DNA of 64,000 bases from a virus. Shown piece by piece: positions 2,368 through 49,420 of the stretch (position 1 is the first letter of the stretch; every line of letters begins with the position of its first letter). The stretch covers positions 62,001-126,000 of IMG/VR virus record IMGVR_UViG_3300049215_000481. One strand, 5' to 3'. The notes under the pieces are model-generated. The model was not told the origin of the DNA, searched no databases, and saw only the letters and a program-made list of their open reading frames with translations. The position numbers and the translations under genes were made by a program.

Positions 2368-2379
2368 TATAGCGAATCT
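2368..2379 (-). promoter_or_regulatory. Class A motif (candidate early/middle promoter)
   Basis: In gene sense this reads AGATTCGCTATA, the same block found at 13 other gene starts in the window. Here it lies 24 bases before the ATG of the membrane-protein gene, leaving room for a short leader with a good AAGGAGG ribosome site. Confidence 0.7.
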
Positions 2380-2763
2380 CGTTCCTGCACATTGCAGGAC
2401 CGTCAGGAACGAGGCGTAAACGCCACGCTGATGACATGGGTTGCACGTACTACTGAACGCATGTTGCTGAAAAAATGCAGCGCGTCATGAACGTAACTAC
2501 ACGTAACTGTTACCAAATCTTGACACTCACTCGCACCTACACGGAATCACTGCAGTATCTGTGTTGCAGCCGTTCCAGGTCACCTGTTACATTTTCCAGG
2601 TGACGTCACTTGCCAGTAACGCGGCCCTGCACTGTGCAGTCCCGCGCGGCCACAAGCCGCACTAGCGCAGCGCGTTAACCGAGCCCCGTTGCTGGCCCTT
2701 TGTGACGTTTCTGACCCGAACCACTGAACACCCGTTCAGCACACCCGGAAAGGAACCTGGAAC
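2380..2763. other. Non-coding region between divergent genes, rich in inverted and direct repeats
   Basis: This is the only gene-free stretch over 300 bases. It holds CCTGCA-cat-TGCAGG (2384-2398) nested in GTTCCTG / CAGGAAC (2381-2410), GTCACCTG / CAGGTGAC (2579-2586 and 2597-2604), the perfect 13-base palindrome CTGCACTGTGCAG (2627-2639), and two ACGTAACT copies spaced by one helical turn near 2490-2507. It is locally less GC-rich than the coding sequence. A TTGACA at 2520 has no convincing -10 partner. It could be a replication origin, an operator region, or a host-type early promoter for the gene at 2764. Confidence 0.55.
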
Positions 2764-3891
2764 ATGAAGAACACCGACCCTCGCGCACTGAACATCGTCA
2801 AGAGCTGGCTGACCGCTTGCGGCATCACCTTCCAGCCTGGACGCCACCCCCAGGCCGACCTCTTGGTCTGCAACGCCACCGGTAGCACCGTGGGCGTTTC
2901 AGTCTCGGTGAAGGGGAGCTACGTGGCGGACGACTCCATCGTCGTCGACGGCGCTTCGATCACTCACCGCGACCTGCGCAAGTCGCTCGAAGCGTTCCGG
3001 ACGCTCCAGCTCGCCCTCGGCTACGACGCCGAGACGCCCGTGGACCGCGGGCCGATCCCGAAGCGTCGTCCGTACGGCGACGACTTTGACCTGGTGGCGA
3101 TGCGGCACTCGGAGTTCCGCCGCGCGCCGAACCCCGACCCCAGGCGCCTCCAGGCCTACTTCAACACCGTCGAGAGAGCGTCGTGGAAGTTCTTCCGTGC
3201 GAACCAGCGCCTGTGCGCTGACCAGATGCTCTCGGTCGAGGACCTGCGGACGTTCGCTCTCGTGTGGACGACCATCTACATCGGCCAGTACGAGATCCCC
3301 GCGGAGCGGGTCACGAACAACGACAACGAGCACCTGCTCTTCACGTACCTCGCGCAGCGCTTCGCCGAGTTCCGTACCAGTCTGATCCGCAAGGGCCGCA
3401 ACGAGCTGCCCGTCCTCGACGCCGCCTTCATCGGCACGCGTGGTCGCCCCTACGACTACAACAACAAGGCGGCATGGCAGGGCGCGGCCGGCGGCAGCGA
3501 GGACATCGAGTACATCGAGTCCTGCGACGAGCCGTCGGAGCGCATCAACACGAAGCTGTACCGTCGCGCCATCGACGAGGCGCACGACGACGAGCAGGAG
3601 GACACGGACTACGTCGCCCGTCACTGCGTGCTCGACGTGAGCAGCCCTGCCGCGCGCCGTACGTCGGCGACGGCGCTCTTGGAGACGCTGCTCGCGGGCC
3701 TGCCCCACGATCAGCTCATCCAGAAGCTCACGCTCGCGGCCGAGAGCGACCGCATCCACACGGACGCGCGCAAGGAGGCCGCCCGCCGGCTGCGCACCCA
3801 CCAACAGCACTGCCCCACGTGCGCGGGTCTCGCGCTGCCTGTCAGCGCCGCCGACGACGAGGACGAGCAGGAGGCTGAGACGGCGGCCTAG
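2764..3891 (+). CDS. Unknown protein, possible sigma region-2-like transcription factor
   Basis: This 375-residue protein is the only plus-strand gene in the first 29 kb. It has a purine-rich ribosome site (AAAGGAAC) and ends 4 bases inside the convergent primase gene. Residues about 125-215 have the helical order of sigma region 2: KFFRANQRLCADQML, then SVEDLRTFALVW, then HLLFTYLAQRFAEFRTSL. This is a weak resemblance that I could not test. The C-terminus has a CPTC pair and an acidic tail. Its isolated position beside the repeat-rich intergenic region suggests independent, perhaps very early, expression. Confidence 0.6.
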   Translation: MKNTDPRALNIVKSWLTACGITFQPGRHPQADLLVCNATGSTVGVSVSVKGSYVADDSIVVDGASITHRDLRKSLEAFRTLQLALGYDAETPVDRGPIPKRRPYGDDFDLVAMRHSEFRRAPNPDPRRLQAYFNTVERASWKFFRANQRLCADQMLSVEDLRTFALVWTTIYIGQYEIPAERVTNNDNEHLLFTYLAQRFAEFRTSLIRKGRNELPVLDAAFIGTRGRPYDYNNKAAWQGAAGGSEDIEYIESCDEPSERINTKLYRRAIDEAHDDEQEDTDYVARHCVLDVSSPAARRTSATALLETLLAGLPHDQLIQKLTLAAESDRIHTDARKEAARRLRTHQQHCPTCAGLALPVSAADDEDEQEAETAA

Positions 3892-4934
3892 TAGTCGAAC
3901 CGCTTGAAGTACACGAACAACCGGCCAGTCCGCACCCGCTCGGCGTTCAGGAACGACTCGTAGACCTGCTCGCAGGTCATCTCACCGAGGTCCTTGAAGC
4001 CGGGCGGGGGCACCATCGTGTACACCTCAAGGCCCGAGAACTCCTTCACCAGCCGCGCAGTCTCGCGCGCGGCGTCCGGGTCGAGCGCGAGGTAGATGCG
4101 CTCGACCCCAGTGTTCTGCAGCAGCCCCACATCTAGCCGCGTGAGGCGCTGAGGGTCGCGGAGGGCCTCCACCTGGCCCTTGGTGACACCCTTGCCCATC
4201 GTAGCGATGTTGCCGCCGCAGAGGTGCGCCTTGAGGGCGTCGACGGGACCTTCGCAGACCACCGCGTGGCGCGAGCCCTTCAGGCGGTTGGCGAACATCA
4301 CGGTGTGTGCGACGGGGATGTCCTTCGACGAGAGGACCTTCGCCGTCTCCTTCCACTTCGACTCCTGCTCGTCCCACCACCGGTTGTCGACGACGAGACG
4401 GCCCTGCCAGCCTACGAGTCGGTCGTCCAGCTCGACCGGGAAGATCACCCGGCGCTCGATCGGAGAGAAGCGCAGGTGGTACTCCTTCGCCATCTCCAGG
4501 CTGATGCCACGACCGGCGAGGTAGTCCCGGCCGCGCTTCGCGAGCACGTGGTCGATCTGGTAGTAGTGGTACGGGAACGTCCGCGTCGGGATGATCCGCG
4601 CGTCTGGGTCGACGTCCTCGCCTGTGCCGAAGAAGTCCGTGAACTGCAGGTCGAGCCGCTCACCGGCGGCGACGATCTGCGTGCCGTAGAGCAGCTCCCT
4701 GACCTCTTCGATGGGCCGGTACATCAGGTCGGCCAGAGCGAACTCGGGCCGACCTTGGTAGTTGTCGGTCTCCTTGCAGAACCAGCAGACGAAGCGCCCG
4801 TCGCGCTTCCGGATGTAGAGCTTGTCGCTCTTGAGGCACTTCGGGCAGTTGAAGATGTACGAGACCGAGTTCTGTCGATACGACAGCCCGGCCTCGTCCA
4901 GTACTTCCTTCAGCTTGACGGGGTTGCAGCCCAC
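3888..4934 (-). CDS. DNA primase (CHC2-type zinc finger plus Toprim)
   Basis: This 348-residue protein has a zinc-finger at the N-terminus with two CxxC pairs (Cys30/Cys33 and Cys50/Cys53), as in DnaG and T7 gp4 primase. A Toprim core carries CEGPVDALKA (catalytic Glu, about residue 222) and LALDPDAARE (DxD-type metal site, about 282). It is shorter than bacterial DnaG because no helicase-binding domain is visible. It would make RNA primers for lagging-strand synthesis with the DnaB-type helicase encoded at 27-29 kb. GTG start. The gene lies three bases downstream of the recombinase stop. Confidence 0.88.
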   Translation of the reverse strand: MGCNPVKLKEVLDEAGLSYRQNSVSYIFNCPKCLKSDKLYIRKRDGRFVCWFCKETDNYQGRPEFALADLMYRPIEEVRELLYGTQIVAAGERLDLQFTDFFGTGEDVDPDARIIPTRTFPYHYYQIDHVLAKRGRDYLAGRGISLEMAKEYHLRFSPIERRVIFPVELDDRLVGWQGRLVVDNRWWDEQESKWKETAKVLSSKDIPVAHTVMFANRLKGSRHAVVCEGPVDALKAHLCGGNIATMGKGVTKGQVEALRDPQRLTRLDVGLLQNTGVERIYLALDPDAARETARLVKEFSGLEVYTMVPPPGFKDLGEMTCEQVYESFLNAERVRTGRLFVYFKRFDY

Positions 4935-4937
4935 GGA

Positions 4938-6289: not shown

Positions 6290-6290
6290 G

Positions 6291-6878: not shown

Positions 6879-6898
6879 GGGTAGTCCAGACGCGAAAC

Positions 6899-6924: not shown

Positions 6925-6936
6925 CTCGGTTGGGTG

Positions 6937-8162: not shown

Positions 8163-8184
8163 AAAGATTGCGTATAGCGAATCT
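8163..8184 (-). promoter_or_regulatory. Composite class A plus class B motif upstream of ssb
   Basis: In gene sense GATTCGCTATA is followed at once by CGCAATCTTT. This is the only place where both motif classes abut in tandem, and it precedes the gene for an abundant protein needed throughout infection. The leader to the ATG at 8103 is about 60 bases. Confidence 0.7.
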
Positions 8185-8205
8185 CGACCGTTGATTTGCT
8201 AGCGG

Positions 8206-8919
8206 TTACTTGGTCTTGAACGACCGCGTCACGAAGTCTTCGTCCACCTCGGCATCCGGCGCGATCTGGACCTGCTTCATCTGGCGGAAGAGCTTCAGCA
8301 GATCCTCGTCGGTGGCGTTGAGCACGACCACGGGCAGCAACTGCCCCTTGAACTTTGCCGCCAGGGCCTTGCTCGTGACGACGGTCGCCACGAAGTTCAT
8401 GTTGAGGACGTCGCCGCAGGCGTTGCGCACCAGCTCGCGGACGTAGTTGGTCGTGTCCTCGGCCGTCTTGACGATGCGGATGTCCTTCAGCTCGGGCGCG
8501 TTGATCGGGTCGATGCCGAGGTCCTTGACGAGCCCGTTGATGAGAGGCATCAGGCGGAAGAGCTGGTCTGACGTGAACTCCCGGCTGTTGCCGATCGTCG
8601 CGTCGACCGTCTCGGAGAGGCGGCTGTACAGCTCGCGCATGTCCACCGTGAACGTGCTGCCCACGTTCTCGGCGATCTCCGCGTACTTCTTGGTCTGCTC
8701 GGGCGTGCCGACCGGCACGAACGCGCGCGACTGGAAGAAGATGCGGCTCCGGTACTCCTTGGTCAGCTTCCCGAGGCTCTCCCGCGCCTCGTTCTTCGCC
8801 ATCTCGAACGCCGCCTGCAGCTTGCGCGGCTTCGAGGAGATGTCGACGGCCAGGGTCTCCTGGGCCGCCGTGATGTCATTCAGGATCGCTTCCGACGTCC
8901 GCTTCTGTTCCGGCTTCAT
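8206..8919 (-). CDS. Conserved-looking protein of unknown function (237 aa)
   Basis: A mixed alpha/beta protein with no motif I can name. The N-terminal half is helical and charged (AAQETLAVDISSKPRK, KLTKEYRSRIFFQSR). The second half contains a hydrophobic strand region (QLLPVVVLNATDEDLL). The gene overlaps the polymerase C-half gene by 44 bases, has a GAAGAAG ribosome site, and lies upstream of ssb, so a replication accessory role is plausible but not shown. Confidence 0.65.
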   Translation of the reverse strand: MKPEQKRTSEAILNDITAAQETLAVDISSKPRKLQAAFEMAKNEARESLGKLTKEYRSRIFFQSRAFVPVGTPEQTKKYAEIAENVGSTFTVDMRELYSRLSETVDATIGNSREFTSDQLFRLMPLINGLVKDLGIDPINAPELKDIRIVKTAEDTTNYVRELVRNACGDVLNMNFVATVVTSKALAAKFKGQLLPVVVLNATDEDLLKLFRQMKQVQIAPDAEVDEDFVTRSFKTK

Positions 8920-11128
8920 CTTCTTCTTCCTTCTCGGGTTTCGTTTCGGTTTGCTTCTGGCTTTGCTCCAGCGACGGCTGGACCACGAGCAAGTCGTCCA
9001 ATGCGAACGGCTTCTCGGTCTTGAACTTAGTGAGGACGGCGAACACGATGGAGCCGGCCAGGGAGCCTTTGAACAGCTCCGGGATGACGCCGGCCTTGCC
9101 GCCCCACTTCACGAACTGCATGCGAGCCCCGGCGACATCGAGGACGACCTCGCACGCCTCCTTCTTCTCGTCGCCCCACGTGAACGGCCTGGTCGACTCG
9201 ACGTAGGCGGCGACTGCCACCTGGAGCATCTCGTCTTCTGCTAGCGTGGTGCGGTCAGCGCGCTCGACCTCCGACGCCGACATCACGTCCAGCTTGATGA
9301 CGCGCGACGAGTTCGGCGGCTGCCAGTTGATCACCGGCCCGTCGTTCGTGTCCTCGACGAAATCTGTGGCGCCCCTGATCTCGGGCAGGAGATCCATCGA
9401 GTACGCCGGCAGGATGCTCTTCTTGATCTGGAAGCGCTTGAGCCGGCTGAGGTCCCACTTGGCCTTGTCGACCGTCTGCGGCTTGACCAGCTTCGGCTTC
9501 TCGGCGCCCGGCCTCTTGGCCAGCTCCTCGTTGGTGGCGTTGACCGCGGCAGCCAGCGCGCGCTCGAAGTCATTGAGCTGCTCGCCTAGGTGCATCTCGG
9601 GCGGGAACAGCGAGTCCATCGAGCCGGACAGGATCAGCTTCTCGACCACACCTCGGTTGAGTGCGCTGTTCCCTCGCTTGAACGTCGCCACCTCCTCGGT
9701 GATCTCCGGCGAGACGAGCTTCCCCTCCTCGTTGCGGTACTTGTTCTTCGTGTCCTTGCGAGTCTTCAGCTTCGTGACCCACTCGCCGCCGCGCACCCGG
9801 TGCAGGTCGATCTTCCGGCAGAAGTCGTCGATGTCCGTGTATGGGGCGTACGCCGTGAGCTGCGCCTGGGCCTTGTCACCGACGCCGTGGAGGAGGTTCA
9901 GCGGGGCACGGATGCGCGTCCCTTGGATCTCGAAGTTCTCACCCGACAGCTTCACGTCCGGGAGGTCGATGAGCTGGCCGCAGTGGCGCCAGAACTTCTC
10001 CTGGATCTCGGTCTTGTCCGCGTTGCGGAGGATGGCCGTCCACCACTCCAGCGGGTAGTGATGCTTGAGGTACGCGCAGGCGTAGCCGTCGACCGAGTAG
10101 CAGACGGAGTGCGACTTGTTGAAGCCGTACTTCGCCCAGGTGATGAAGAACTGCCAGGCCGCTTCGGCGTTCTCCTTGCCGATCTTCGCGCCGGCCTTCT
10201 CGATGAAGGGCTTGTAGGCCTTCTCGATCTTCGCCTTCTTCTTCTTGGCGACGTTCGAGCGGAACTCCTCGGCGTCCGACCCCGAGCAGCCCGTGAGCTG
10301 CTGGTACACGCGCTGGAGCTGCTCCTGATAGACCATGACCCCGTACGTCTCGGGAATCAGCTCATTGAAGATCTGGAGGACGTCCGGGCTCGGGTTCGCG
10401 CCGCGTGCCCGCCGCGCGTACTCGACCAGCATGTTGTGCTTCTTGTTGGGCTCGTCCGGGTTGCTGACCGGGATGTCGAGCGGGCCGGGGCGGTCGAGCG
10501 CCGTGAAGGCCGACATGGCCTCGATCGAGTCGATGGCGTAGTTGCCGTTCGGCTTCCTGTAGGCGAAGTGCTCCAGCCACTGCACGGCGCCCGGCGTGTT
10601 GAACTGGAACACCGTCTCGGTCTTGCCGGTGGCGACGTCAGCGAACACCGCCTGGTCACCTGGCAGGTCCCAGATGTCCACGAACTTGTCGCCCATCGGC
10701 AGCAGACGCTGCGAGGGGACGCGGCGGCCGTTGAGGATGATGGAGAACCGCTTCTCGCGGGGCGGCCCGCTCCATCCAACCAGGTTCTCCTCGTGGTCGA
10801 TGATGCGGTACTGGCTCATGTCGACGTTGTGCGCGTACCGGCTCTGGATGAGCTGGATGGCGTCGCCGATGTCGTCGAGACACCCGAGGCCGAGGAAGTC
10901 CATCTTCAGACCGCCGACCGCCTCGACGCTCGGGGCGGTGTACGCGGTGACCATGACGTCGGACACGGACGTCAGCGGAATGAACTCGGAGATGGGGCGG
11001 TTCGCGATGACGAACGCGCAGTTGTGAACAATTACCCCGCTTTCGTGAATGAAGCTGTGGTCGCCGTGCTCGACCGACAGGTCGTACACAGGCTGGACAC
11101 CTAGAGAGCGCGCGGCAACGATCTTCAC
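8876..11128 (-). CDS. dnaE-C: DNA polymerase III alpha (DnaE-like), C-terminal half with intein C-fragment
   Basis: 750 residues. Residues 1-36 are an intein C-fragment (VKIVAARSLGVQPVYDLSVE ... GVIVHN) followed by Cys+1 of the C-extein. The C-extein (714 aa) starts CAFVIANRPI, the continuation of the conserved HA-x-G/A-x-VIA segment of C-family polymerases. It carries the third catalytic aspartate region (LKMDFLGL), the fingers motif YGFNKSHSVCYS, and later tau/OB-like parts. An in-frame TGA just before the GTG start means this is a separate translation unit. The halves must be spliced in trans to give a polymerase of about 1358 aa. The far C-terminus is Lys/Glu-rich. Confidence 0.9.
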   Translation of the reverse strand: MKIVAARSLGVQPVYDLSVEHGDHSFIHESGVIVHNCAFVIANRPISEFIPLTSVSDVMVTAYTAPSVEAVGGLKMDFLGLGCLDDIGDAIQLIQSRYAHNVDMSQYRIIDHEENLVGWSGPPREKRFSIILNGRRVPSQRLLPMGDKFVDIWDLPGDQAVFADVATGKTETVFQFNTPGAVQWLEHFAYRKPNGNYAIDSIEAMSAFTALDRPGPLDIPVSNPDEPNKKHNMLVEYARRARGANPSPDVLQIFNELIPETYGVMVYQEQLQRVYQQLTGCSGSDAEEFRSNVAKKKKAKIEKAYKPFIEKAGAKIGKENAEAAWQFFITWAKYGFNKSHSVCYSVDGYACAYLKHHYPLEWWTAILRNADKTEIQEKFWRHCGQLIDLPDVKLSGENFEIQGTRIRAPLNLLHGVGDKAQAQLTAYAPYTDIDDFCRKIDLHRVRGGEWVTKLKTRKDTKNKYRNEEGKLVSPEITEEVATFKRGNSALNRGVVEKLILSGSMDSLFPPEMHLGEQLNDFERALAAAVNATNEELAKRPGAEKPKLVKPQTVDKAKWDLSRLKRFQIKKSILPAYSMDLLPEIRGATDFVEDTNDGPVINWQPPNSSRVIKLDVMSASEVERADRTTLAEDEMLQVAVAAYVESTRPFTWGDEKKEACEVVLDVAGARMQFVKWGGKAGVIPELFKGSLAGSIVFAVLTKFKTEKPFALDDLLVVQPSLEQSQKQTETKPEKEEEDEAGTEADVGSDPE
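11021..11128 (-). other. Split intein C-fragment (IntC, 36 residues)
   Basis: Residue pattern KI-A-R-LG-Q-VYD--VE--DH-F----G-I--N, followed by Cys, matches the DnaE split-intein C-fragments of cyanobacteria (for example Npu) almost position by position. It has the penultimate His (IVHN) and terminal Asn needed for branch resolution, so it looks active. Confidence 0.88.
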
Positions 11129-11174: not shown

Positions 11175-11723
11175 TCATGGTTCCAACCTACTCAGTACCC
11201 GGCCCACCTCGATCATCGTCTCGTACTTCATATTGTCACCTCGCACTCGGTTACAGCGCACACAGCTCGGCACGCAGTTCCCCTTGATGTGTCCTAGCGC
11301 GTTCTCGATGCGATCGAGCCCAGTTGCTGGCCGGTCGCAGTATGTGCACTTGGCTCTGACGGCACTGAGGCAGTCATTGACGTCGAGGTCGAAGCCCCTC
11401 CCAGCCTTACGATCGTGCTGGCGGTAGACGTGTCGCATCCTGATCGCACGCCGTTCTTCTTCCGTCCCGTAGATGATCCGCGAGTCATAAGCGCAGCGCC
11501 GGCACCAGTAGCCGGTCTTTTTGAGCGCAGTCCACGGGCGCTCCCATTGATGTCCCGAGGCGCACTCCCAGGTAGAGTTTCCGGTCGCCCGCCCTGGCCA
11601 TGAGACAAGTCGCCCGCCTCTAGCTGAGGCGTACCCCTCGGCCTCTCCACGTTTCCAGTCGCAGCCACGTCTACGAGAACCAGCTCCACCCCCACTTGCA
11701 TCGCCAGCGCGATCTCCATCCAC
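11175..11723 (-). CDS. HNH homing endonuclease inside the fractured polymerase gene
   Basis: 182 residues from the only usable upstream start, GTG 11723. The frame differs by one base from the polymerase/intein frame and overlaps the intein N-fragment coding region. Residues about 23-77 form a zinc-ribbon DNA-binding module of the homing-enzyme type (ASARGG, WECASGH, GYWCRRC). Residues about 125-170 form the HNH nuclease (KCTYCDRPATGLDRIENA, then CVRCNRVRGDN). It stops 46 bases before the IntC start. Expected role: cutting intein-less polymerase alleles to spread the insertion. Confidence 0.82.
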   Translation of the reverse strand: MDGDRAGDASGGGAGSRRRGCDWKRGEAEGYASARGGRLVSWPGRATGNSTWECASGHQWERPWTALKKTGYWCRRCAYDSRIIYGTEEERRAIRMRHVYRQHDRKAGRGFDLDVNDCLSAVRAKCTYCDRPATGLDRIENALGHIKGNCVPSCVRCNRVRGDNMKYETMIEVGRVLSRLEP

Positions 11724-13864
11724 CCACGCTCCGTCATCACTAGGTGATCTGGCGTGCACCGGATCTTGCTCCCGTTCTCCAGGCAGTACTCGACCACCTC
11801 GCGTTCTCCTTGGTGAAGGAGCGTAGCTTTGGCGGGAATCTGGTTCCCCGTGAGGACTGTGCGGCCGTCGCACTCTTTGATGGGCTTTGTCTCGTTGCAC
11901 GAAAGTAAGATTGCTTCTCCACCAGGGAAGCACGCGTGCCGGCCCTTCTGTCGCGCCAGGCCGAGGCACTTCTGGACGATCTCCCAGTCCTGCGGATACG
12001 CGTTGATGTAGTCGCGCAGCGCGGGGTCGTACTCGACGGAGCCCTGGACGTGGCCCTCGTCGGTGTCGTAGCCCATGACGAAGTCGAAGTCCGTCACGCC
12101 CTGCGGCGGCTTGATGAACTTCTTCGAGTATCTCGCGATGTCCGGCGCGACGTGCCCGCGCATCGCGCGCGAGACGTCCATGACGGCCATGCTGACCTTC
12201 AGCGTGCTGTCGACCGAGATCTGCGCGTAGTGGTCGCCGAAGCGCTTCTTGAGCCACCCGTTCACCGGGTCGATCAGCAGCTCGCGGCGTCGCTTCGGGA
12301 GGTCCTGATCGATGTCGGGGAGCTTCCCGGACTCGATGCGGTCCTGCGTGAGGAAGCGCTCCATCGACAGCTCGTACTTGAGCGGGTCGACGTGCGTGAT
12401 GCCGATGAGGTAGGTCAGCAGCATGCCGGCCGCCGAACCACGACCCGGGCCCGTGAGGTAGCCGAGACGCTCGAAGAAGGAGCACACCTCTTCGTCGACG
12501 AAGAAGTACGGCAGGAGGTCGATGGTGCGGTTCTCGTGCAGCAGCGTGATCTCGGCTCGGAGCCGGTCGACGTAGCGCTTGTCGCTCCAGTCCATCCGGC
12601 CGTGCCGCTGGATGAGGTCGCGGGTGTAGCGCAGGGAGTTGTGGCGGTCGCCGGGGATGAACCACGGCTGCAGCTCGTACTTCTCCTCGTAGAACTTGGT
12701 GGGCAGCGACGGCGGCGAATCGAAGACGAAGCCCTTGAACCGCTCGGCCCACTCGTGGGTGTTCTCCACCCATCCCTCGAAGGTCTTCTCCGAGGTGAAG
12801 AGCTTGTTCTTGAAGTAGTGGAGCGCCTCTTCGCTGGACTGCCGGTGGTAGTTGCCGTAGAAGCGCCACGAGCCCGACTGAGCCAGGCGCACGTCCTGGA
12901 CGACCTTCTCGTCGATCTTCGCGTAGTGCGAGTCGTCTCCGATGAGGACCTTGCAGTCGAACTGCCGCGCGAGGGCGATCATCATCTTGTTGAGACCGGC
13001 CTGCACGTCGCCATCGGGTGCCCACGGGCGGCACTCGTTCGGCATGAACTCCTCGACGTACTCGACGTTCGTGATCTCGACCTCTGGCATCTCGCGCCAG
13101 ACGGAGTAGTCCTTGATGGACCGCAGGACCTTGTGCTCGTTCGACTTGGTGCCCCACGCCGAGGCAAGAGCCGCCGCGCGGATCTCGCCGACGTTCGTCA
13201 GGAACCACTTCTTGTCGTGGAACTTCGCGCGCGTGCCGTCTGCGAGCGTGATGAACACGCCCTTGACCCAGTTCTTCGACGTGTCGTGCGGGTTGACCTC
13301 GACGTACAGGTTCCCGGGCTTGACGATCGACTTCAGGCGCTCGAAGTACTTGATCGCCATCGGCACGTCGTTGTTTTCGAGGACGTGGCGCTGGACCATG
13401 CCGATCATGCAGCCGGTCGTCATCGTCACGTTGTGAGAGGCCAGCTCTTCGAGGTTGGCCCAGTTGAAAAGCGGCTTGCGCTCCTTGCCGTGGAACTCGG
13501 CGCGCACGTCTGCCTTCGACAGCAACCGGACACCGCACTCGTAGGCGGCCTGGTCCAGGAAGTGGAGGGTGATGTGGCAGTACTTCAGGTAGTCGACGTA
13601 CGTGCCGTCCTCGTTCTTGGGCACGCCCGCGGCCTGGAAGATCGGGCAGTCGTCGTCTCGGAAGTAGCCTTCGAGACCGAGCACCGGAGTGAGCCCTCTG
13701 GCCTTGCCGAGGTCGTAGACCTTGCGACAGGCAGCGAGGCTCCCGTGGTCGGTCACCGTGATGACCCCGGAGCCCAGCTCGACCTCTCGGTCTGCGAACG
13801 CTTCAGGGGTCGAGGCTGAGTCGAGCGACTGGGGATGACAGTGACAGGTAGCGAAGTTCCGCAC
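11294..13864 (-). CDS. dnaE-N: DNA polymerase III alpha (DnaE-like), N-terminal half with intein N-fragment
   Basis: 856 codons from GTG 13864. Residues 1-644 are the N-extein: a PHP domain (CHCHPQSLD with His8/His10, ITVTDHGSL, GLEGYF, GDDSHYAK) and the palm with SGKLPDIDQDLPKRRR, whose two aspartates match the PDxDxD catalytic pair. The extein ends at GRHA. Cys645 begins the intein N-fragment. The last ~118 codons of this frame are low-complexity and simply shadow the HNH gene in another frame, so the useful protein probably ends near residue 738. A class A motif lies 11 bases upstream. No Shine-Dalgarno site. Confidence 0.9.
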   Translation of the reverse strand: MRNFATCHCHPQSLDSASTPEAFADREVELGSGVITVTDHGSLAACRKVYDLGKARGLTPVLGLEGYFRDDDCPIFQAAGVPKNEDGTYVDYLKYCHITLHFLDQAAYECGVRLLSKADVRAEFHGKERKPLFNWANLEELASHNVTMTTGCMIGMVQRHVLENNDVPMAIKYFERLKSIVKPGNLYVEVNPHDTSKNWVKGVFITLADGTRAKFHDKKWFLTNVGEIRAAALASAWGTKSNEHKVLRSIKDYSVWREMPEVEITNVEYVEEFMPNECRPWAPDGDVQAGLNKMMIALARQFDCKVLIGDDSHYAKIDEKVVQDVRLAQSGSWRFYGNYHRQSSEEALHYFKNKLFTSEKTFEGWVENTHEWAERFKGFVFDSPPSLPTKFYEEKYELQPWFIPGDRHNSLRYTRDLIQRHGRMDWSDKRYVDRLRAEITLLHENRTIDLLPYFFVDEEVCSFFERLGYLTGPGRGSAAGMLLTYLIGITHVDPLKYELSMERFLTQDRIESGKLPDIDQDLPKRRRELLIDPVNGWLKKRFGDHYAQISVDSTLKVSMAVMDVSRAMRGHVAPDIARYSKKFIKPPQGVTDFDFVMGYDTDEGHVQGSVEYDPALRDYINAYPQDWEIVQKCLGLARQKGRHACFPGGEAILLSCNETKPIKECDGRTVLTGNQIPAKATLLHQGEREVVEYCLENGSKIRCTPDHLVMTERGWMEIALAMQVGVELVLVDVAATGNVERPRGTPQLEAGDLSHGQGGRPETLPGSAPRDINGSARGLRSKRPATGAGAALMTRGSSTGRKKNGVRSGCDTSTASTIVRLGGASTSTSMTASVPSEPSAHTATGQQLGSIASRTR
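11651..11932 (-). other. Split intein N-fragment (IntN, about 94 residues)
   Basis: Begins with Cys1 (CFPGGEAILL) after extein GRHA. It contains GEREVVEYCLENGSKIRCT and PDHLVMTERGWMEI, the block A/B features (TxxH) of Hint domains, close to Npu DnaE-N in order and spacing. It ends near VELVLVDVAATGN, almost exactly where the HNH domain begins in the shifted frame. Confidence 0.87.
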
Positions 13865-13875
13865 GCCCGGGGCTA

Positions 13876-13886
13876 ATAGCGAATGT
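13876..13886 (-). promoter_or_regulatory. Class A motif upstream of polymerase N-half
   Basis: Gene-sense ACATTCGCTATT, 11 bases before the GTG start and overlapping the perfect inverted repeat TAGCGA-cat-TCGCTA. No ribosome site lies between motif and start, so a leaderless or near-leaderless message is likely. Confidence 0.68.
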
Positions 13887-17895: not shown

Positions 17896-17907
17896 TATAG
17901 CGAATCT
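17896..17907 (-). promoter_or_regulatory. Class A motif
   Basis: Gene-sense AGATTCGCTATA 17 bases before the ATG at 17878. It overlaps the last codon of the upstream reductase gene, so space for a conventional leader is minimal. Confidence 0.72.
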
Positions 17908-19771
17908 ACTTAATCGGGCAGGCCCCGCCTTCGCACTCAGTGCCCGACAAATCGAAGCCGCCGTTGTCTTCGTCCAACGAGATCGGAGAGATCTTCGCGG
18001 TGAACTGCTCGTACTGCTCCTTGGTGATGGCCTCCTTCGGAGCCTGCTTGAAGCCGTGGTCGTTCCAACAGAGGAACGAGATGGTCTTCAGGTGCTTCAG
18101 GTGCAGTGCAAGCCACGCCTTCAGCTCAGCGATCTCGTGCTTCCGGTAGTAGACCGTCACGGAGACCGCCTGGTCGGCCCAGTGTTTCTGGGCGAGGAGC
18201 AGGACGTCAAGCTGCTGCCAGGTCGTGAAGCCCTCGTCCGCAGTCGGGAGGTCGGCCGGGCACTCGATGTAGAAGTCCACCACCAGGGTGCCGTGGTCTA
18301 GCGTCCCGTCGAACTTCACGACGGGCTCCATGTAGTGGCCGGCTGCGCGGAGCTTCGGGATCGCGGGGTCGTTCGCGGCGAATCGAACGCGCTGGATCAT
18401 GTAGCGCGCGAACCCGCAGTGGATGCCCTCACCCTGCACGTCGTACAGCTTCGAGAGCGTGCCCGACGGCTTCACGACGGTCGTGCGGATGCTCGGCGGG
18501 ATGCCCAGCTCCTTCGAGTAGGAGATGTTCTCCTCCTGGATGGCGGCGTACGCCTGGTCCAGGACGGCCGGGTTGAAGAGGTCGGGCGCTTGCAGACAGC
18601 CCGTGATGCCGGTGCCGACGCGACGGTTGCGGCTGACGACCTCCTGGACCTCTGCGTGGTGGTAGTTCTCGCAGGTCACGCGCTTGCCCCAGCGGTGCAT
18701 GAGGCGCGAGGACTCGAAGAACTCCTCGGGGCCGTTCATGTTGGGCAGCGCCTGCTCCTGGAGGTTGCACGGCTCCAGGTTCTCCAGCGTCGCCTCGGCG
18801 CACGGGTTCACCACCACGGCCGAGTCCTTCTTCAGCTCGCCCATGCGGCCGTACTTCCGCATGTTGGTGCGGTTCACGATGCCGAAGGGCTCGCCCTGGT
18901 GGTACGTCTCCCAAAAGAGCGGGTGGAGGTCGTCGACCTCGTCGGCGACGACGCTGAAGTTCGCGTTCGACCGCTGGCTCGGGATCGTCCCGAGGTCCCA
19001 GCGCTTCGCCTTGAGGAAGACCTTGTCCCACGGGTCGCCGATGATGATGAGCGCGGAGCGCCGCACGTTGCCGGCGACGACCATCTCTGCGATGAGGCAG
19101 AGCAGGTCCGCGGCGTCGATCGGCCGCATCGCCTTGCCCTCACGCGAGATGAGGAGAGCGCACAGCTTCTCGATGAACGTGACGAGGGGGCCGGGGCCCG
19201 AGGCCGTGCCGCCGAAGCCCTTGATCGGCTCGCCACTGCCGCGCACGCAGACGGTGCTGTACGAGAACGAACGCCCCGTGACGAAGAACGCTTCGAGGAC
19301 TCGGCGGGTCAGCTCGACCCAGCCCTCGCGCGAGTCCGGCACGATGAACTCCGCATCCTTCGTGGGCCGGTGGACGATCTTCACGTCCTTGCGGACGCGC
19401 GGCAGCTTCGAGGTGTACTGGTGCTCGACACTCATCCCGACGCCGCCGCCCAGCATCAGGAGGTCCTGCGAGATGACGAAGTTCATCCAGTCGTCGGACG
19501 TCGTGCCCCAACAGTTGTTGAGGGCGACGCCGCCCAGCCGCTGATGGCCGGGGCTGCCGCTGTACCACCACCCTCGCCCGGCAGGGCCCGACTTGCGCTC
19601 GCCCAGGAAGTAGCGGAGGCGCTGAATCTCGCGCTCGCTGACGTTGAACCCGCGGACGTTGCCCGCGATGGCTCGCTCGACGGTGTCATTCCAGTTCTCG
19701 GTGTGGCCGGTATCCTTTCGTGCGTAAGTGCGCTTGTAGACGACGGTTGCCAAATTGCTCCAGGGCTTCAT
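17906..19771 (-). CDS. nrdJ: Ribonucleotide reductase, class II, adenosylcobalamin-dependent (NrdJ)
   Basis: 621 residues from ATG 19771, which overlaps the preceding HNH stop (ATGA). Diagnostic features: N-terminal VVYKRTYARKD, LGGGVGMSVEHQ, NPCAEATLENLEPCNL (the NPCxE active-site segment), TVVKPSGTLSKL and a C-terminal CEGGACPIK, the redox Cys pair of monomeric class II triphosphate reductases of the Lactobacillus leichmannii type. It would make dNTPs without oxygen, using host or environmental B12. It supplies replication precursors together with the dNMP kinase at the right edge. Confidence 0.92.
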   Translation of the reverse strand: MKPWSNLATVVYKRTYARKDTGHTENWNDTVERAIAGNVRGFNVSEREIQRLRYFLGERKSGPAGRGWWYSGSPGHQRLGGVALNNCWGTTSDDWMNFVISQDLLMLGGGVGMSVEHQYTSKLPRVRKDVKIVHRPTKDAEFIVPDSREGWVELTRRVLEAFFVTGRSFSYSTVCVRGSGEPIKGFGGTASGPGPLVTFIEKLCALLISREGKAMRPIDAADLLCLIAEMVVAGNVRRSALIIIGDPWDKVFLKAKRWDLGTIPSQRSNANFSVVADEVDDLHPLFWETYHQGEPFGIVNRTNMRKYGRMGELKKDSAVVVNPCAEATLENLEPCNLQEQALPNMNGPEEFFESSRLMHRWGKRVTCENYHHAEVQEVVSRNRRVGTGITGCLQAPDLFNPAVLDQAYAAIQEENISYSKELGIPPSIRTTVVKPSGTLSKLYDVQGEGIHCGFARYMIQRVRFAANDPAIPKLRAAGHYMEPVVKFDGTLDHGTLVVDFYIECPADLPTADEGFTTWQQLDVLLLAQKHWADQAVSVTVYYRKHEIAELKAWLALHLKHLKTISFLCWNDHGFKQAPKEAITKEQYEQFTAKISPISLDEDNGGFDLSGTECEGGACPIK

Positions 19772-21211: not shown

Positions 21212-21222
21212 AATAGCGAATC
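21212..21222 (-). promoter_or_regulatory. Class A motif
   Basis: Gene-sense GATTCGCTATT, 31 bases before the ATG at 21180, with AAAGGAG in the leader. It overlaps the stop of the upstream gene. Confidence 0.68.
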
Positions 21223-21827: not shown

Positions 21828-21839
21828 GATAGCGATTGT
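21828..21839 (-). promoter_or_regulatory. Class A motif (variant)
   Basis: Gene-sense ACAATCGCTATC, 8 bases before ATG 21819. It keeps the ATCGCTAT core but lacks the first T of ATTCG. Confidence 0.6.
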
Positions 21840-23991: not shown

Positions 23992-24003
23992 AATAGCGAA
24001 TCT
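23992..24003 (-). promoter_or_regulatory. Class A motif
   Basis: Gene-sense AGATTCGCTATT, 8 bases before the GTG start at 23983, overlapping the upstream stop. No Shine-Dalgarno sequence fits in the gap. Confidence 0.7.
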
Positions 24004-24253
24004 ACCTGTTGCGCTTGGGGTCGGTCAGTGCGCGCTCGTGGTACAGACGCTCGGCGTCCGCCAGGCGCTCGACCGGCTTCGCCATCAAGCCGTTGTCGAG
24101 CTTTTCCAGCACCTGCGTCGACGGCGGATTAGGATCGCGCCACATGGTCGACTGGCACTTCTCGCAGGCGACCGGCTGCGTCTGCTGCCCCGACGGCAGC
24201 ATCTTGCGCTTGCGGTGCCCGCAGACCTTGCACTCGAATCGGTAGAACGGCAT
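24002..24253 (-). CDS. FmdB-like zinc-ribbon protein (83 aa)
   Basis: Begins MPFYRFECKVCGHRK with a second CEKC pair about 20 residues later, then MWRDPNPP, the typical FmdB/putative regulatory zinc-ribbon arrangement. The remainder is helical and charged. Role unknown; such ribbons often bind nucleic acid or other proteins. TGATG coupling with the upstream membrane gene. Confidence 0.7.
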   Translation of the reverse strand: MPFYRFECKVCGHRKRKMLPSGQQTQPVACEKCQSTMWRDPNPPSTQVLEKLDNGLMAKPVERLADAERLYHERALTDPKRNR

Positions 24254-24443: not shown

Positions 24444-24455
24444 GATAGCGAATTA
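24444..24455 (-). promoter_or_regulatory. Class A motif
   Basis: Gene-sense TAATTCGCTATC, 8 bases before ATG 24435, overlapping the stop codon of the upstream gene. Confidence 0.66.
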
Positions 24456-27272: not shown

Positions 27273-27284
27273 TATAGCGAATCT
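27273..27284 (-). promoter_or_regulatory. Class A motif upstream of chaperonin gene
   Basis: Gene-sense AGATTCGCTATA, 11 bases before ATG 27261, in the short gap after the helicase stop. No ribosome site between motif and start. Confidence 0.72.
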
Positions 27285-29861: not shown

Positions 29862-29873
29862 TATAGCGATTCC
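29862..29873 (-). promoter_or_regulatory. Class A motif, leftward arm of divergent hub
   Basis: Gene-sense GGAATCGCTATA, 9 bases before ATG 29852. Together with the rightward copy at 29904 it forms the switch point between the left and right operons. Confidence 0.7.
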
Positions 29874-29903: not shown

Positions 29904-29914
29904 CATTCGCTATA
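29904..29914 (+). promoter_or_regulatory. Class A motif, rightward arm of divergent hub
   Basis: CATTCGCTATA ends 9 bases before ATG 29924. The preceding GCGAA can pair with TTCGC of the motif. No ribosome site. Confidence 0.72.
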
Positions 29915-29923: not shown

Positions 29924-31426
29924 ATGTTGGCCCTCCTAGCACCGACGGAACTCCGTCTCGGTGGATACGAGAAGAACCGCGCGCTCCTCGCTGAGACGCT
30001 GACGTACACCGACAAGCGGGTCGACTACGAGTACCGGAAGGCCAAGGCGAGCAAGGGCTGGTTCGTCCGGGTGCATGGCCAAGCCGCCTACGACGAGCGC
30101 ATCGCAGCGCTCGAAGCAGAGCGCAAGAAGTCGCTGCTGTACGAGGACGCCGAGGGGCTGTGGACCCGGTCAGGAGTTCATCCGCTGCTGGCGCGCGTGT
30201 TCGACGACAAGCTCGTGCGCAGTTACGAGCTGCCGGCGCCGCGCGTGGTGCCGTGGGCGAAGATGCCCGAGCACCAAGACCGCTACTACCAGGTCGCCGC
30301 GCACGACGCGCTCCTGGCTGCCGCGCAGAACGGCCCCGCCTGCGTCGAGATCGGAACCGGCCTCGGCAAGAGCCGCATCATCCGCAACCTCATCAAGTCC
30401 CTCGGCCTTCAGGCCGTCGTAATGGCGCCGTCGAAGAACATCGCGCAGCAGCTCTTCGACGACCTCACGCTCCACTTCGGCAGTGCGCGCGTCGGCTTCT
30501 TCGGCGACGGCAAGAAGCAGTACAGCAAGCTGATCACCGTCGCCATCGGCGCCTCGCTCACGCGCGTCGAGCCGGGCTCGCCGATCTGGGAGAAGCTCTC
30601 GCAGGCCCGCGTCTTCATCGCCGACGAGTCGCACCTCTGTCCTGCCGCGACGCTGGAGAAGGTGTGCTTCGGGCTGCAGGGCAGCGCGCCCTACCGGTTC
30701 TTCTTCTCAGGCACGCAGATGCGCAACGACGGGCTCGATCTCGTCCTCGACGGCATCACCGGCCCGTGCGTATACAGCATGACCGTCCGCGAGGGCGTCG
30801 ACCAGGGCTTCCTGAGCAAGCCGGTGTTCCGCACGGTGTGGATGGACTCGAAGGTACTCGGCGCCTCCGGGCGCATCTACGACTCCGACGACGCCAACGA
30901 CCTCACGCGAGCGCATGTCTTCTACAACCCGGACGTCAACGCGCGCGCCGCGGAGTTCGCGAACAAGTCGGTCAGCATGCTCGGCCGCCCGACCGTCATC
31001 CTCGTCGAGGAGATGGAGCAGTTCGGGCACCTCCTGCCGCTCCTCCGCTACGAGGCGCGCTTCGCCCACGGCGGCGTGACCAAGGAGAACAAGGACAAAA
31101 TCCCGGAGCAGTACCACGACAGCGATCCCAAGGCGCTCGTGGCTGCGTTCAACCGGAACGAGTTCCCCATCCTCGTCGGCACGTCCTGCATCGTCACGGG
31201 CACCGACATCCAGGCCGCCCAGACGATCATCTTCCTCCGTGGCGGCAAGTCGGAGATCGAGGTCAAGCAGGCCATCGGTCGCGGCACGCGGCTCTTCCCC
31301 GGCAAGAACGACTGCATCTTCCTCGACTTCGGCATCTCGAACGTCGAGACGCTCGAACGGCACGCCAACGCGCGCATCAAGATTTTCGACGACGTCTACC
31401 CGTCACACCAGGAGCTGCGCCTGTAA
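29924..31426 (+). CDS. UvsW-like SF2 DNA/RNA helicase
   Basis: 500 residues. An N-terminal DNA-binding-type domain (about 1-110) is followed by SF2 motifs: CVEIGTGLGKSRI (motif I), AVVMAPSKNIAQQL (Ia), FIADESHLC (II, DESH), FFSGTQMR (III), TVILVEEMEQ (IV), VGTSCIVTGTDI (V) and KQAIGRGTRLF (VI). The layout fits T4 UvsW, which drives branch migration and R-loop removal during recombination-dependent replication. First gene of the rightward arm. The ATG is set by the adjacent class A motif. Confidence 0.82.
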   Translation: MLALLAPTELRLGGYEKNRALLAETLTYTDKRVDYEYRKAKASKGWFVRVHGQAAYDERIAALEAERKKSLLYEDAEGLWTRSGVHPLLARVFDDKLVRSYELPAPRVVPWAKMPEHQDRYYQVAAHDALLAAAQNGPACVEIGTGLGKSRIIRNLIKSLGLQAVVMAPSKNIAQQLFDDLTLHFGSARVGFFGDGKKQYSKLITVAIGASLTRVEPGSPIWEKLSQARVFIADESHLCPAATLEKVCFGLQGSAPYRFFFSGTQMRNDGLDLVLDGITGPCVYSMTVREGVDQGFLSKPVFRTVWMDSKVLGASGRIYDSDDANDLTRAHVFYNPDVNARAAEFANKSVSMLGRPTVILVEEMEQFGHLLPLLRYEARFAHGGVTKENKDKIPEQYHDSDPKALVAAFNRNEFPILVGTSCIVTGTDIQAAQTIIFLRGGKSEIEVKQAIGRGTRLFPGKNDCIFLDFGISNVETLERHANARIKIFDDVYPSHQELRL

Positions 31427-31722
31427 TGCTGATCTTCGTCATCATTGGCTTCCTCGTCACTTGGGCCGCGCTGCTGTACTTCGCGCTCCGCAACGCAGGT
31501 ACGGTCGCGAAGCGCCTCGACGAGGAGAGTGAGGGCACGCTGGTGCGCTCCCTGAACCTCGCGATAGGGCCGCACAACCACCCTGACTCGTGCCGGGAGC
31601 TGGCCGCCCTGCGGAGGCTCGGCTGGGACATCTCCACCCGCGGCAACGCGCTGTCCGGCGAGATCACCATCGTCATGAAGCACCCGGAGCGCCTCGCCCG
31701 CGCCGCTCGATTCTCCCGATGA
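31426..31722 (+). CDS. Small single-pass membrane protein (98 aa)
   Basis: MLIFVIIGFLVTWAALLYFA forms one N-terminal membrane helix. The soluble part includes PHNHPDSCRELAALRRLGW and ends with a basic segment. Start overlaps the helicase stop (TAATG) and its stop overlaps the sigma-like gene start (ATGA). Function unknown. Confidence 0.62.
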   Translation: MLIFVIIGFLVTWAALLYFALRNAGTVAKRLDEESEGTLVRSLNLAIGPHNHPDSCRELAALRRLGWDISTRGNALSGEITIVMKHPERLARAARFSR

Positions 31723-32798
31723 TCTTCACCGACGACGCACACTTCAGGTACTTCGCGTCCTCGCTGGAGAGCGCCATCGCGAAGTACGGCGACATCGCCG
31801 ACTTCGACGAGAAGCAGAAGGCGCAGGTCGAGGGGCTCATCGCCCTGGAGCACGAGTTCCGCGATACGCTCATCGCGCACCGCTGGGGTCGCGCGGTCTA
31901 CGAGACGTTCGTCAAGTTCATCTGCGACGAGAAGCGCAACATCCTGGCCGCGCGGCCATACTTCCGCGAGAGGCAGGAGGTCTTCACCGCCGACATCTCA
32001 GAGGCCTTGAAGACTCGCAACGCCGAAGGGCTCTACCGCTTCTCGATCAACTACCAGTTCATCGCATTCGTGATGAAGGCGAGGCGTTGGGAGGCGGACA
32101 ACATCGGCAGCACGATCGTCAGTCTGGCGCGGAAGATCGAGGCACTGCGCACTGAGCTGATCGAGATGAACATGCCGCTGGCCATCAGCCGCGCCCGCAT
32201 CTTCTTCTCGCGCACGCCGTTGAGCCACCTCACGTACATGGACCTCATTCAGATCGCATCGGAGGGGCTCATGTCGGGCATCGACAAGTACTCCCCCGAA
32301 GACGGCGTGTTCTCGCGCGCGTTTCGCTCCACCGCCATCGGTCGCATGACGGGCAACTTCATCGAGGAGTACTCGGAGACGCTGCTGCACTTCTACCCGG
32401 CCGACAAGCGCAAGCTCTACCGCGCGAACAAGGCCGTCGGCCGCCACGCTGGCGTGGTCGACTTCGAGCGACTGGCCACGCAGGTCAACGACGGAGCGAA
32501 GAAGGGGTGCAAGACCAACCCGAACGAGATCGCCGACCTCATGGCGGCTGCCAGCACCGTCTCGGCCGACTCCAGCCCCAGTGACAACTTCGAGTCCGAG
32601 AGCGACTCCGGCGCCCCCCGCGTGCTGGCAGAGCGCTTCGCCGCTCCGGAGACGGACCAGCCGGACGTTCGCTTCGAGCGCGACCACGACATGACCGTCC
32701 TCGCCAAGGCGCTCTCCTCACTCTCGCTCGTCGAGCAGAAATTGCTCCGCCTGAAGGGGCTCGGAGTCGAGAACTTTCGCTATATGGCTCCCGCATGA
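31719..32798 (+). CDS. Sigma-70-family-like transcription factor (region 2; no region 4.2 HTH)
   Basis: 359 residues. Region 2 is recognisable at about 145-220: ALRTELIEMNMPLAISRARI (2.1), LTYMDLIQIASEGLMSGIDK (2.2 core-binding), YSPEDGVFSRAFRSTAIGRM (2.3/2.4). A helical region-3-like part follows, and the protein ends soon after LSLVEQKLLRLKGL, before a region-4.2 helix-turn-helix. Its partner could be the region-4-like protein at 14080. By analogy with T4 gp55, it may direct RNA polymerase to the phage motifs, most likely class B. Coupled to both neighbours by ATGA overlaps. Confidence 0.75.
   Translation: MIFTDDAHFRYFASSLESAIAKYGDIADFDEKQKAQVEGLIALEHEFRDTLIAHRWGRAVYETFVKFICDEKRNILAARPYFRERQEVFTADISEALKTRNAEGLYRFSINYQFIAFVMKARRWEADNIGSTIVSLARKIEALRTELIEMNMPLAISRARIFFSRTPLSHLTYMDLIQIASEGLMSGIDKYSPEDGVFSRAFRSTAIGRMTGNFIEEYSETLLHFYPADKRKLYRANKAVGRHAGVVDFERLATQVNDGAKKGCKTNPNEIADLMAAASTVSADSSPSDNFESESDSGAPRVLAERFAAPETDQPDVRFERDHDMTVLAKALSSLSLVEQKLLRLKGLGVENFRYMAPA
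32775..32785 (+). promoter_or_regulatory. Class A motif inside sigma-like gene 3' end
   Basis: TTTCGCTATAT ends 9 bases before ATG 32795. It lies in coding sequence but has the same spacing to the next start as the other class A copies, so it may fire an internal transcript. Confidence 0.55.
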
Positions 32799-33088
32799 TC
32801 GAAGGGTTCAACAACAACATCGCGTGTGCTCCGTTCGAGAAGAAGTCGGTCGAGACTAAGGTGTCGAACGCCTTCGGGACCGTCGCCCAGAAGGTCACGC
32901 TGACCAAGCTCCGCGTGATCTACGGCAACGACAAGATCCCGGCTGGCGCCCTCATCTACGTGAAGGGCGACACCATGAAGCACGTCTGGGCCAATGAGGA
33001 GTTCGAGGTGGACGGCCAGACCGTCATCCTCGTGCCCCAAGCCAGCGTCTTCTTGGTCGACTTCCCACTGCCTCCCGCGAACGCCTAA
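32795..33088 (+). CDS. Small beta-rich protein, possible GroES-like co-chaperonin
   Basis: 97 residues. The second half (IPAGALIYVKGDTMKHVWAN, then EFEVDGQTVILVPQASVFLV) has the strand order of GroES/gp31: a 'G-x-x-V/I-Y' step, then a final strand pair. The N-terminal part could hold a mobile loop (PFEKKSVETKVSN). This resemblance is weak and I could not test it, but a partner for the phage GroEL would be expected. ATGA overlap with the sigma-like gene. Confidence 0.55.
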   Translation: MIEGFNNNIACAPFEKKSVETKVSNAFGTVAQKVTLTKLRVIYGNDKIPAGALIYVKGDTMKHVWANEEFEVDGQTVILVPQASVFLVDFPLPPANA

Positions 33089-34061: not shown

Positions 34062-34425
34062 CATGCAGCCCCCTGCAGACCCGGCGCACCAGCTCATGGT
34101 GCTCAAGGCCGCGACGAAGACGACCGGCATCGTCCACGAAGCCCAGATCTTCCAGCTCCGCATGTGGGGGCGCCTGTGCCTGCAGCACGTGGAGCCTCCA
34201 ACCGTCCAGGTCCTGCCGCTCGACCGTGAAGTGATCTACCGGTCGCCAGCCACCCTGAAGGGGAAGGTCGCCAAGAAGACGATCGACGCCAGGCTCACGG
34301 CGCTCAACGACTCAGTGAAGTGGTTGCTGGGTGACGACTGGTCGCTCCTCGTTGAAGTGGCTGGAAACGCAATCTTTCCAGCTAGCACCAACGATGCCCC
34401 AAGACCTCGTACCAGTAAGCGATAA
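34054..34425 (+). CDS. Protein of unknown function (123 aa)
   Basis: Start overlaps the nuclease stop. Mostly helical (AHQLMVLKAATKTTGIVHEA, AKKTIDARLTALNDSVKWLL). The last third carries the class B hairpin of the terminase operon within its coding sequence, so the 3' end is doubly used. No family recognised. Confidence 0.62.
   Translation: MSSMQPPADPAHQLMVLKAATKTTGIVHEAQIFQLRMWGRLCLQHVEPPTVQVLPLDREVIYRSPATLKGKVAKKTIDARLTALNDSVKWLLGDDWSLLVEVAGNAIFPASTNDAPRPRTSKR
34360..34382 (+). promoter_or_regulatory. Class B motif in a perfect 8-bp hairpin, upstream of terminase genes
   Basis: GCTGGAAA / TTTCCAGC pair around the loop CGCAATC. The motif ACGCAATCTTT ends 16 bases before ATG 34394. No Shine-Dalgarno sequence follows. 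Likely start of the packaging/late transcript. Confidence 0.72.
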
Positions 34426-36965: not shown

Positions 36966-36984
36966 AGCCGCAATCTTTCGGCTC
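36965..36984 (+). promoter_or_regulatory. Class B motif in a 6-bp hairpin after terminase
   Basis: GAGCCG / CGGCTC flank the loop CAATCTTT. It begins at the terL stop codon and ends 11 bases before ATG 36996. Same loop, different stem sequence from the copy at 34360. Confidence 0.72.
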
Positions 36985-40153: not shown

Positions 40154-40154
40154 C

Positions 40155-41496: not shown

Positions 41497-41508
41497 CATA
41501 GCGAATCC
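41497..41508 (-). promoter_or_regulatory. Class A motif of minus-strand island
   Basis: Gene-sense GGATTCGCTATG, 8 bases before ATG 41488, with GGAC / GTCC able to pair around it. It is only 13 bases from a plus-strand class B motif, making a divergent early/late pair. Confidence 0.68.
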
Positions 41509-41521: not shown

Positions 41522-41532
41522 CCCGCAATCTT
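41522..41532 (+). promoter_or_regulatory. Class B motif upstream of protease-GGDEF gene
   Basis: CCCGCAATCTT, followed by GGGGAGG which could serve as a ribosome site for ATG 41554. Only a 3-base CCC/GGG stem flanks it. Confidence 0.68.
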
Positions 41533-46301: not shown

Positions 46302-46308
46302 GACGCAG

Positions 46309-46318
46309 AAGATTGCAT
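46309..46318 (-). promoter_or_regulatory. Class B-like motif upstream of zinc-ribbon gene
   Basis: Gene-sense ATGCAATCTT, 7 bases before GTG 46301. Faces away from the plus-strand class B copy at 46343, giving a divergent pair. Confidence 0.5.
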
Positions 46319-46342
46319 TGCAGGATTTTTGTCTCGGTTACA

Positions 46343-46354
46343 GCCGCAATCTCC
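46343..46354 (+). promoter_or_regulatory. Class B motif upstream of capsid gene cluster
   Basis: GCCGCAATCTCC, 56 bases before ATG 46411. This copy has a long leader with a conventional AGGAG ribosome site, unlike most other class B genes. Confidence 0.62.
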
Positions 46355-46410
46355 TAGGGGCATCGAGCGCGCAGTCGCTCCTTTCAAGTTCCCAACAGGA
46401 GATTCATTCA

Positions 46411-46866: not shown

Positions 46867-46911
46867 GCCCCAGCTCCGTCACTCAGTACGGCTGGAAGGA
46901 ACACCTACACA

Positions 46912-47853: not shown

Positions 47854-47920
47854 CCGGGGTTGACCCGGCAACCAGGGCAGCAACCCCACCAGATACGGAA
47901 TCACTTAGGAGCCAAGGATC

Positions 47921-49324: not shown

Positions 49325-49353
49325 TCCTTCAGGACACGCAGTAGGCACCTAGA

Positions 49354-49387
49354 AGGGCCTCCGGGAAACCGGGGGCCCTTTTCTTTT
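49354..49387 (+). terminator. Rho-independent terminator after major capsid gene
   Basis: AGGGCC-t-CCGG and CCGG-g-GGCCCT pair around a GAAA tetraloop, followed by TTTTCTTTT. This is the clearest intrinsic terminator in the window and would insulate the capsid transcript from the class A unit starting 45 bases on. Confidence 0.88.
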
Positions 49388-49409
49388 GCGCAGCGAGTCG
49401 ACGGGCGCT

Positions 49410-49420
49410 GATTCGCTATT
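49410..49420 (+). promoter_or_regulatory. Class A motif after the capsid terminator
   Basis: GATTCGCTATT ends 11 bases before ATG 49432. It starts a small plus-strand group of probable early genes in the middle of the structural region. Confidence 0.72.

Follow-up and report, generated by a model that had tools for sequence, protein, structure and literature searches.

A candidate single-block promoter class at a fixed distance from gene starts in a tailed phage related to Myxococcus phage Mx1

The late promoters of phage T4 are read by the sigma factor gp55 together with gp33 and the clamp gp45. These promoters consist of a single -10 block without a -35 element, with the consensus TATAAATA at -13 to -6 (PMC1524935). 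The T4 middle promoters, which depend on MotA and AsiA, precede non-structural genes and are read by the host RNA polymerase from a -10 element without a -35 element, with a MotA box at about -30 (PMC11598898). Sigma-70 promoters of the extended -10 type (TGn-TATAAT) carry extra conserved bases upstream of -10 and likewise have no -35 element. Phages AR9 and phiKZ have short phage promoters, and phage transcripts are described as often leaderless (PMC5312081); the leaders of AR9 itself are long. The nearest named relative found for the phage described here is Myxococcus phage Mx1 (OR576727), which infects Myxococcus xanthus and whose genome paper does not mention promoters (PMC10720576). A search of the open-access literature returned no paper describing the motif or the promoters of Mx1-type phages.

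The DNA analyzed here is a window of 64,000 nucleotides, comprising bases 62,001–126,000 of a 169,280-base virus record. The window encodes a portal, a major head protein, a PolIII-alpha-like polymerase with a PHP domain, and a DnaB-like helicase, together with Cpn60, a B12-type ribonucleotide reductase, and a T5-A1-like DNA transfer protein. This gene content identifies the record as a tailed phage. Comparison of the whole window at the DNA level gave no match to known phages. The major capsid protein of Mx1 is 57% identical to that of the record, and the gene order around the helicase and sigma genes is common to both. Genes were called with our own simple hexamer model, which did not use the motif as input and may misplace starts, and functions were assigned manually, on the basis of family hits and of homologs in Mx1. 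The PolIII-alpha-like polymerase is encoded by two open reading frames (8876–11128 and 11294–13864, minus strand) and by a single 1289-aa gene in Mx1 (153579–157448). The ribonucleotide reductase (17906–19771, minus strand) is of the B12-dependent type, while the Mx1 annotation gives class Ia alpha and beta subunits. No tRNA genes were found in the window (1–64000), compared with 22 in Mx1.

A preliminary description of this window listed 14 copies of a motif, termed class A, and read it as an early or middle promoter. All 14 copies were present on the strands given, with two positions displaced by one base (13875 instead of 13876, and 32774 instead of 32775). Four of them are exact copies of GATTCGCTATA, six carry one mismatch, three carry two, and the copy at 21828 (CAATCGCTATC) carries three. 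Matches with at most two mismatches numbered 20 in the window against 4.8 expected, a count reached by none of 100 shuffles. Across the record, the core TTCGCTAT occurs 49 times, compared with once in a reversed control, and TCGCTAT occurs 58 times, about 54 of these copies being plausible as sites. One extra core match, at 44721 on the plus strand, falls within a gene and is probably not a real site.

The weight-matrix scan proposed in that description was carried out as a hold-out test, in which the 14 window sites alone supplied the matrix and the rest of the record was scanned at a threshold of 12. Matches before starts far outnumbered those in gene interiors, so that the refuting outcome named in the description, equal numbers of the two, did not occur: 34 of 44 matches lay in sense and no more than 40 nt ahead of a called start (random positions, 4.8%), four were inside genes in sense, six were at other intergenic positions, and none was antisense. 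The same matrix gave four matches on the whole reversed record. We regard the class A observation as confirmed.

The distance to the start codon, given previously as mostly 8–17 bases, proved far more regular than that range conveys. Genome-wide, 28 of the 58 TCGCTAT copies have an ATG exactly 9 nt downstream, where chance would give 0.62 at any one distance; every other spacing under 20 nt is represented by two copies at most. Several called starts shift to this ATG at +9 (9 nt after TCGCTAT), correcting the gene starts concerned. In the window, an ATG follows the core after exactly 9 nt at 21828–21838, 24444–24454, and 41497–41507 (all minus strand), as does the GTG of a recombination-endonuclease-like gene at 23992–24002 (minus). 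At 27273–27283 (minus; GATTCGCTATA), before the Cpn60-like gene, a TTG lies 9 nt and an ATG 12 nt after the core. The divergent pair at 29862–29872 (minus) and 29904–29914 (plus), the latter heading the helicase-sigma operon, has an ATG at 10 nt on each side. The distance is 11 nt both at 13875–13885 (minus; CATTCGCTATT), to the GTG of the PolIII-alpha-like gene, and at 32774–32784 (plus), to an ATG. It is 12 nt, again to an ATG, at 49410–49420 (plus), and 18 nt at 17896–17906 (minus; GATTCGCTATA).

The remaining three sites in the window lie farther from their start codons. At 2368–2378 (minus; GATTCGCTATA), AGGAGG begins about 9 nt after TCGCTAT and the ATG follows 24 nt after it. At 21212–21222 (minus), the ATG is 32 nt after the core and has AAAGGAG in front of it. 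The site at 8173–8183 (minus), before an ssDNA-binding-like gene, has a start 34 or 70 nt away and overlaps a CAATCTT match. A small FmdB-like zinc-ribbon protein (24002–24253, minus strand), a possible transcription regulator, is also encoded in the window and is conserved in Mx1 and other relatives.

Among the 26 sites lacking an ATG at 9 nt, a Shine-Dalgarno (SD)-like word begins 8–10 nt after the core in 12, and at exactly 9 nt in nine. A pyrimidine-purine step falls at the predicted -1/+1 in 15 of the 26, the top value among offsets 8 to 25. Examples are TCGCTATcagctcttc|aggaggacacgATG and TCGCTATcaggctcac|ATG. At some sites, such as 8173, 21212, and 17896, the predicted position coincides with no ATG and no SD. 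Because an ATG or, often where that is missing, an SD begins at one and the same base, the constant is a position in the DNA and not the start codon. If TAT is taken as -12 to -10, the base 9 nt after TCGCTAT is +1, which would make class A a -10-only promoter with leaderless or very-short-leader mRNAs. Over 54 sites, the information content reads gAtTCGCTATnnG (TCGCTAT being fixed by the search), followed by a pyrimidine-rich stretch and then a purine. The earlier statement that no -35 block is shared held in this larger set: taking the T of TCGCTAT as the reference point, the information stays at or below 0.12 bit everywhere between -60 and -20, and the only upstream signals are weak (0.12–0.24 bit at -19, -16, and -9 to -7). 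Hold-out enrichment, exact spacing, and the lack of a -35 block all agree with the single-block promoter reading. Class A is very probably a promoter, and the predicted start base and leaderless class of its transcripts are likely.

The same spacing bears on two other readings. A constant 9-nt gap to the ATG in half of the sites would also suit a translation-start element in the mRNA, such as a start-associated sequence or a non-SD ribosome binding site, with no promoter involved. However, the fixed point is kept at many sites where the start codon sits 11–15 nt off and an SD begins there instead, and sites head operons and divergent pairs, making this reading highly improbable. A directional single block with many intergenic copies could also be a stoperator-like operator, placed near starts and bound by a DNA-binding protein of the phage. 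We give this equally little credence, given the base-exact spacing to ATG or SD, the pyrimidine-purine step at the predicted +1, and the TAT register at the canonical -12 to -10.

Under the promoter reading, TTCGC directly upstream of TAT (gaTTCGC-TAT-nnG) would act as an extended -10-like element, with no -35 element used. Counting from the first T of TAT, transcription would begin 12 nt downstream, at the pyrimidine-purine step. At about half of the sites the start base would be the A of the ATG, giving a leaderless mRNA, and at many others it would be the first base of the SD, giving a leader of roughly 11–15 nt. Leaderless mRNAs are thus predicted to be widespread, and infected hosts of such phages could be used for the study of leaderless translation.

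Class A was then compared with sigma-70 promoters. T and A occupy the predicted -12 and -11 with the start 12 nt downstream, a sigma-70-type arrangement in which TAT was fixed by the search word and the start was deduced from the ATG or SD. As in extended -10 promoters, extra bases are conserved upstream of -10 and no -35 is seen, but TTCGC stands in place of TGn. The query has CG at -15/-14; TG is found only in a deep clade of relatives, where TGATAT is enriched at the same distance from the ATG (15 versus 1.3). Ordinary sigma-70 prefers T at -7, whereas 47 of 54 query sites have G at the predicted -7, and 59 of 62 sites of a related genome, G010, have a purine there.

A second octamer, GCAATCTT (class B), occurs in 30 copies in the record against 1.3 expected and precedes structural genes, whose start often follows 6 nt later. 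Copies in the window, all on the plus strand, lie at 36970–36977, before the gene that follows the terminase; at 41525–41532, with a start 6 nt after and before a prohead-protease-like gene; at 52350–52357; at 57104–57111, with a start 6 nt after; and at 34369–34376, 51051–51058, and 59577–59584. When each gene was assigned to its nearest upstream motif on the same strand, structural genes fell to class B in 17 of 17 cases, and non-structural genes to class A in 15 of 20 and to class B in 5 of 20 (p = 3e-6). These five assignments, which involve CAATCTT matches that are intragenic or overlap a class A site, are probably due to chance. The split bears out the earlier view that early/middle-type genes lie behind class A. 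Host-like TTGACA..TAnnnT promoters were not enriched in the record (5 versus about 4 in shuffles), so a separate early class could not be shown. A few well-placed copies near 1.2–5.2 kb were considered as such a class and, with a count no higher than in shuffles, are not claimed.

These gene classes also set class A beside the two T4 systems. With T4 late promoters it shares a single -10 block without a -35, in a register within one base of the one inferred here, and in both cases the phage encodes a sigma factor without -35 reading. It differs in preceding non-structural genes, the structural ones having class B, and in its upstream TTCGC block and predicted start at the ATG. With T4 middle promoters it shares non-structural genes, a -10 without a -35, and probable use of the host polymerase, but its 54 sites show no upstream box.

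The preliminary description had offered two enzymes for class A, the host polymerase with a phage factor or another RNA polymerase. A search of the record, which is possibly incomplete, found no RNA polymerase beta or beta' families, while positive controls were detected, which argues against the second option and leaves the host core polymerase as the likely enzyme. A phage-encoded polymerase, virion-borne or single-subunit, would fit short phage-specific promoters like those of AR9 (PMC5312081). AR9 and phiKZ promoters are, however, read by phage multisubunit polymerases of which none was found here, and with the sigma-70-like -10 geometry this makes a phage polymerase very unlikely. The first option, host polymerase aided by a phage factor, would fit the data.

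A candidate for such a factor, the one sigma-like protein found, is encoded in the window. The helicase gene (29924–31426, plus strand) is the first in an operon that includes a 359-aa sigma-70-family protein (31719–32798, plus strand) in which profile alignment places regions 2, 3, and 4.1 but no 4.2 helix-turn-helix. Its match to Sigma70_r2 is weak (E 5.8e-5 in a six-frame search, below the curated cut-off), and it matches a phage sigma family at 1e-6. Together with its relatives, a family of about 76 members, it aligns to residues 370–566 of Escherichia coli RpoD (hhalign 3.7e-7; hmmsearch E 2.8e-12). Most members end 1–12 residues past RpoD residue ~566, and one ends at 20, so that they stop short of the 4.2 helix-turn-helix; a further five fell outside the tail pattern applied, at least one of them being an incomplete contig end. 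Sigma70_r4 was not found in the record. The protein keeps regions 3 and 4.1 and has no profile match to T4 gp55 (hhalign probability 0.6%), from which it differs in both respects. The class A site at 32774–32784 lies at the sigma stop codon, before a candidate GroES/gp31-like co-chaperonin gene (32795–33088, plus strand). This small protein, encoded directly 3' of sigma, is conserved in sequence with relatives, and its family was assigned by eye; the Cpn60-like gene lies at 25501–27261 (minus strand). The position next to sigma had been considered for a gp33-like co-activator, and this was set aside as the neighbor looks GroES-like instead.

As the reader of class A we favor host polymerase with a host-type sigma, the phage sigma being a serious rival. 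The explanation that we consider best, and somewhat probable as a whole, is that class A is a single-block -10-type promoter of non-structural genes, which host core polymerase reads by means of a host-type sigma, leaving the late motif to the phage sigma. For the host-type sigma as reader, taken by itself, we see roughly even chances. Host core polymerase with this sigma, perhaps aided by a phage helper, would fire class A, and the truncated phage sigma, itself behind class A, would then direct the polymerase to the late motif GCAATCTT. If class A is read at a time when no phage sigma has yet been made, a sigma operon behind class A is what one would expect. The non-T base at the predicted -7 makes it less likely that a host sigma acts there unaided.

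That base is also among the points in favor of the rival, in which host core polymerase with the phage's own sigma (31719–32798) reads class A. Class B would then have another reader, or this sigma would turn to it later with the help of a co-factor, and sigma would amplify its own operon. A sigma that stops before 4.2 in nearly all of its ~76 relatives would explain a promoter without a -35. Across six relatives region 2.4 hardly varies, and it has diverged in Mx1, whose sigma is 44% identical to the query's and whose genome has no class A motif. In two related loci (L017 and L018), the motif is TTCGCTATAAATA, which contains TATAAATA, the T4 late consensus read by gp55; TATAAATA is found in these two only, the query having TATnnG. 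Against this, a sigma gene that is itself behind class A needs a priming source, and sigma is kept, with the late motif alongside, where the class A word has been replaced (Mx1 and the deep clade). The late motif persists alongside sigma throughout the family even as the class A word varies, which favors a host-type sigma at class A. We judge the phage sigma the less probable reader, though a substantial contender.

This variation was followed in 78 loci with the sigma gene, among which the class A word differs. TTCGCTAT or TTCGCTA is found in the query, L012, L015–L019, L022, L033, L037, L059, and L060, and variants such as TACGCTATATC occur in L026. When k-mers were pooled and searched clade by clade, only the query's own clade and the deep clade showed an unambiguous counterpart of class A. 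The class A site before the helicase (29904 in the query) is conserved in several relatives, and that at the sigma/GroES-like boundary (32774) is present in L012, L015, L016, L017, and L019 despite 41–59% GC. The late word [CT]AATCT[TA] precedes the homolog of the post-terminase gene in 66 of 72 loci, against a background of 1.3%.

The contig of L060 (G010; 168,646 bp) provides a near-complete independent case. Its sigma is 43% identical to that of the query, and it carries 57 copies of TTCGCTAT against 1.6 expected, with the consensus CGTTCGCTATAGR. An ATG lies at 9 nt in 24 of these and at 8–10 nt in 34. Class A in G010 precedes GroEL, GroES-like, DnaB, helicase-sigma, PolIII, SSB, and dNMP kinase genes, and no structural gene among those examined. 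The late word of this genome, read by eye, is GCAATCAT. Spacing is looser in the other relatives, where 6 of 29 sites have their start at 9 nt, compared with 1.3% of random positions. The fixed distance, the leaderless class, the truncated sigma, and the replicate genomes are all points absent from the preliminary description.

Together these data offer a base-exact, testable transcription map for a phage family of ~170 kb genomes related to Mx1. They link single-block promoters to a sigma family whose loss of the -35-reading helix apparently took another path than in T4 gp55. A broader proposal, which we put forward only tentatively and consider rather doubtful, is that in this large, mostly uncultured family a sigma-70 cut before its -35-reading helix runs genome-wide single-block promoters (class A and perhaps class B) that start on the start codon, so that mRNAs would be largely leaderless and the regulon would feed its own sigma.

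Mx1 resembles the record in its late motif, (C)AATCTT, and differs in lacking class A. In Mx1 (L008–L011), early/middle genes carry instead a promoter-like class of the form GATCAAC-N15-ATG, and many small genes have a further promoter-like word, GGATCT..TAG(A/T)(G/A)T, accompanied by an SD.
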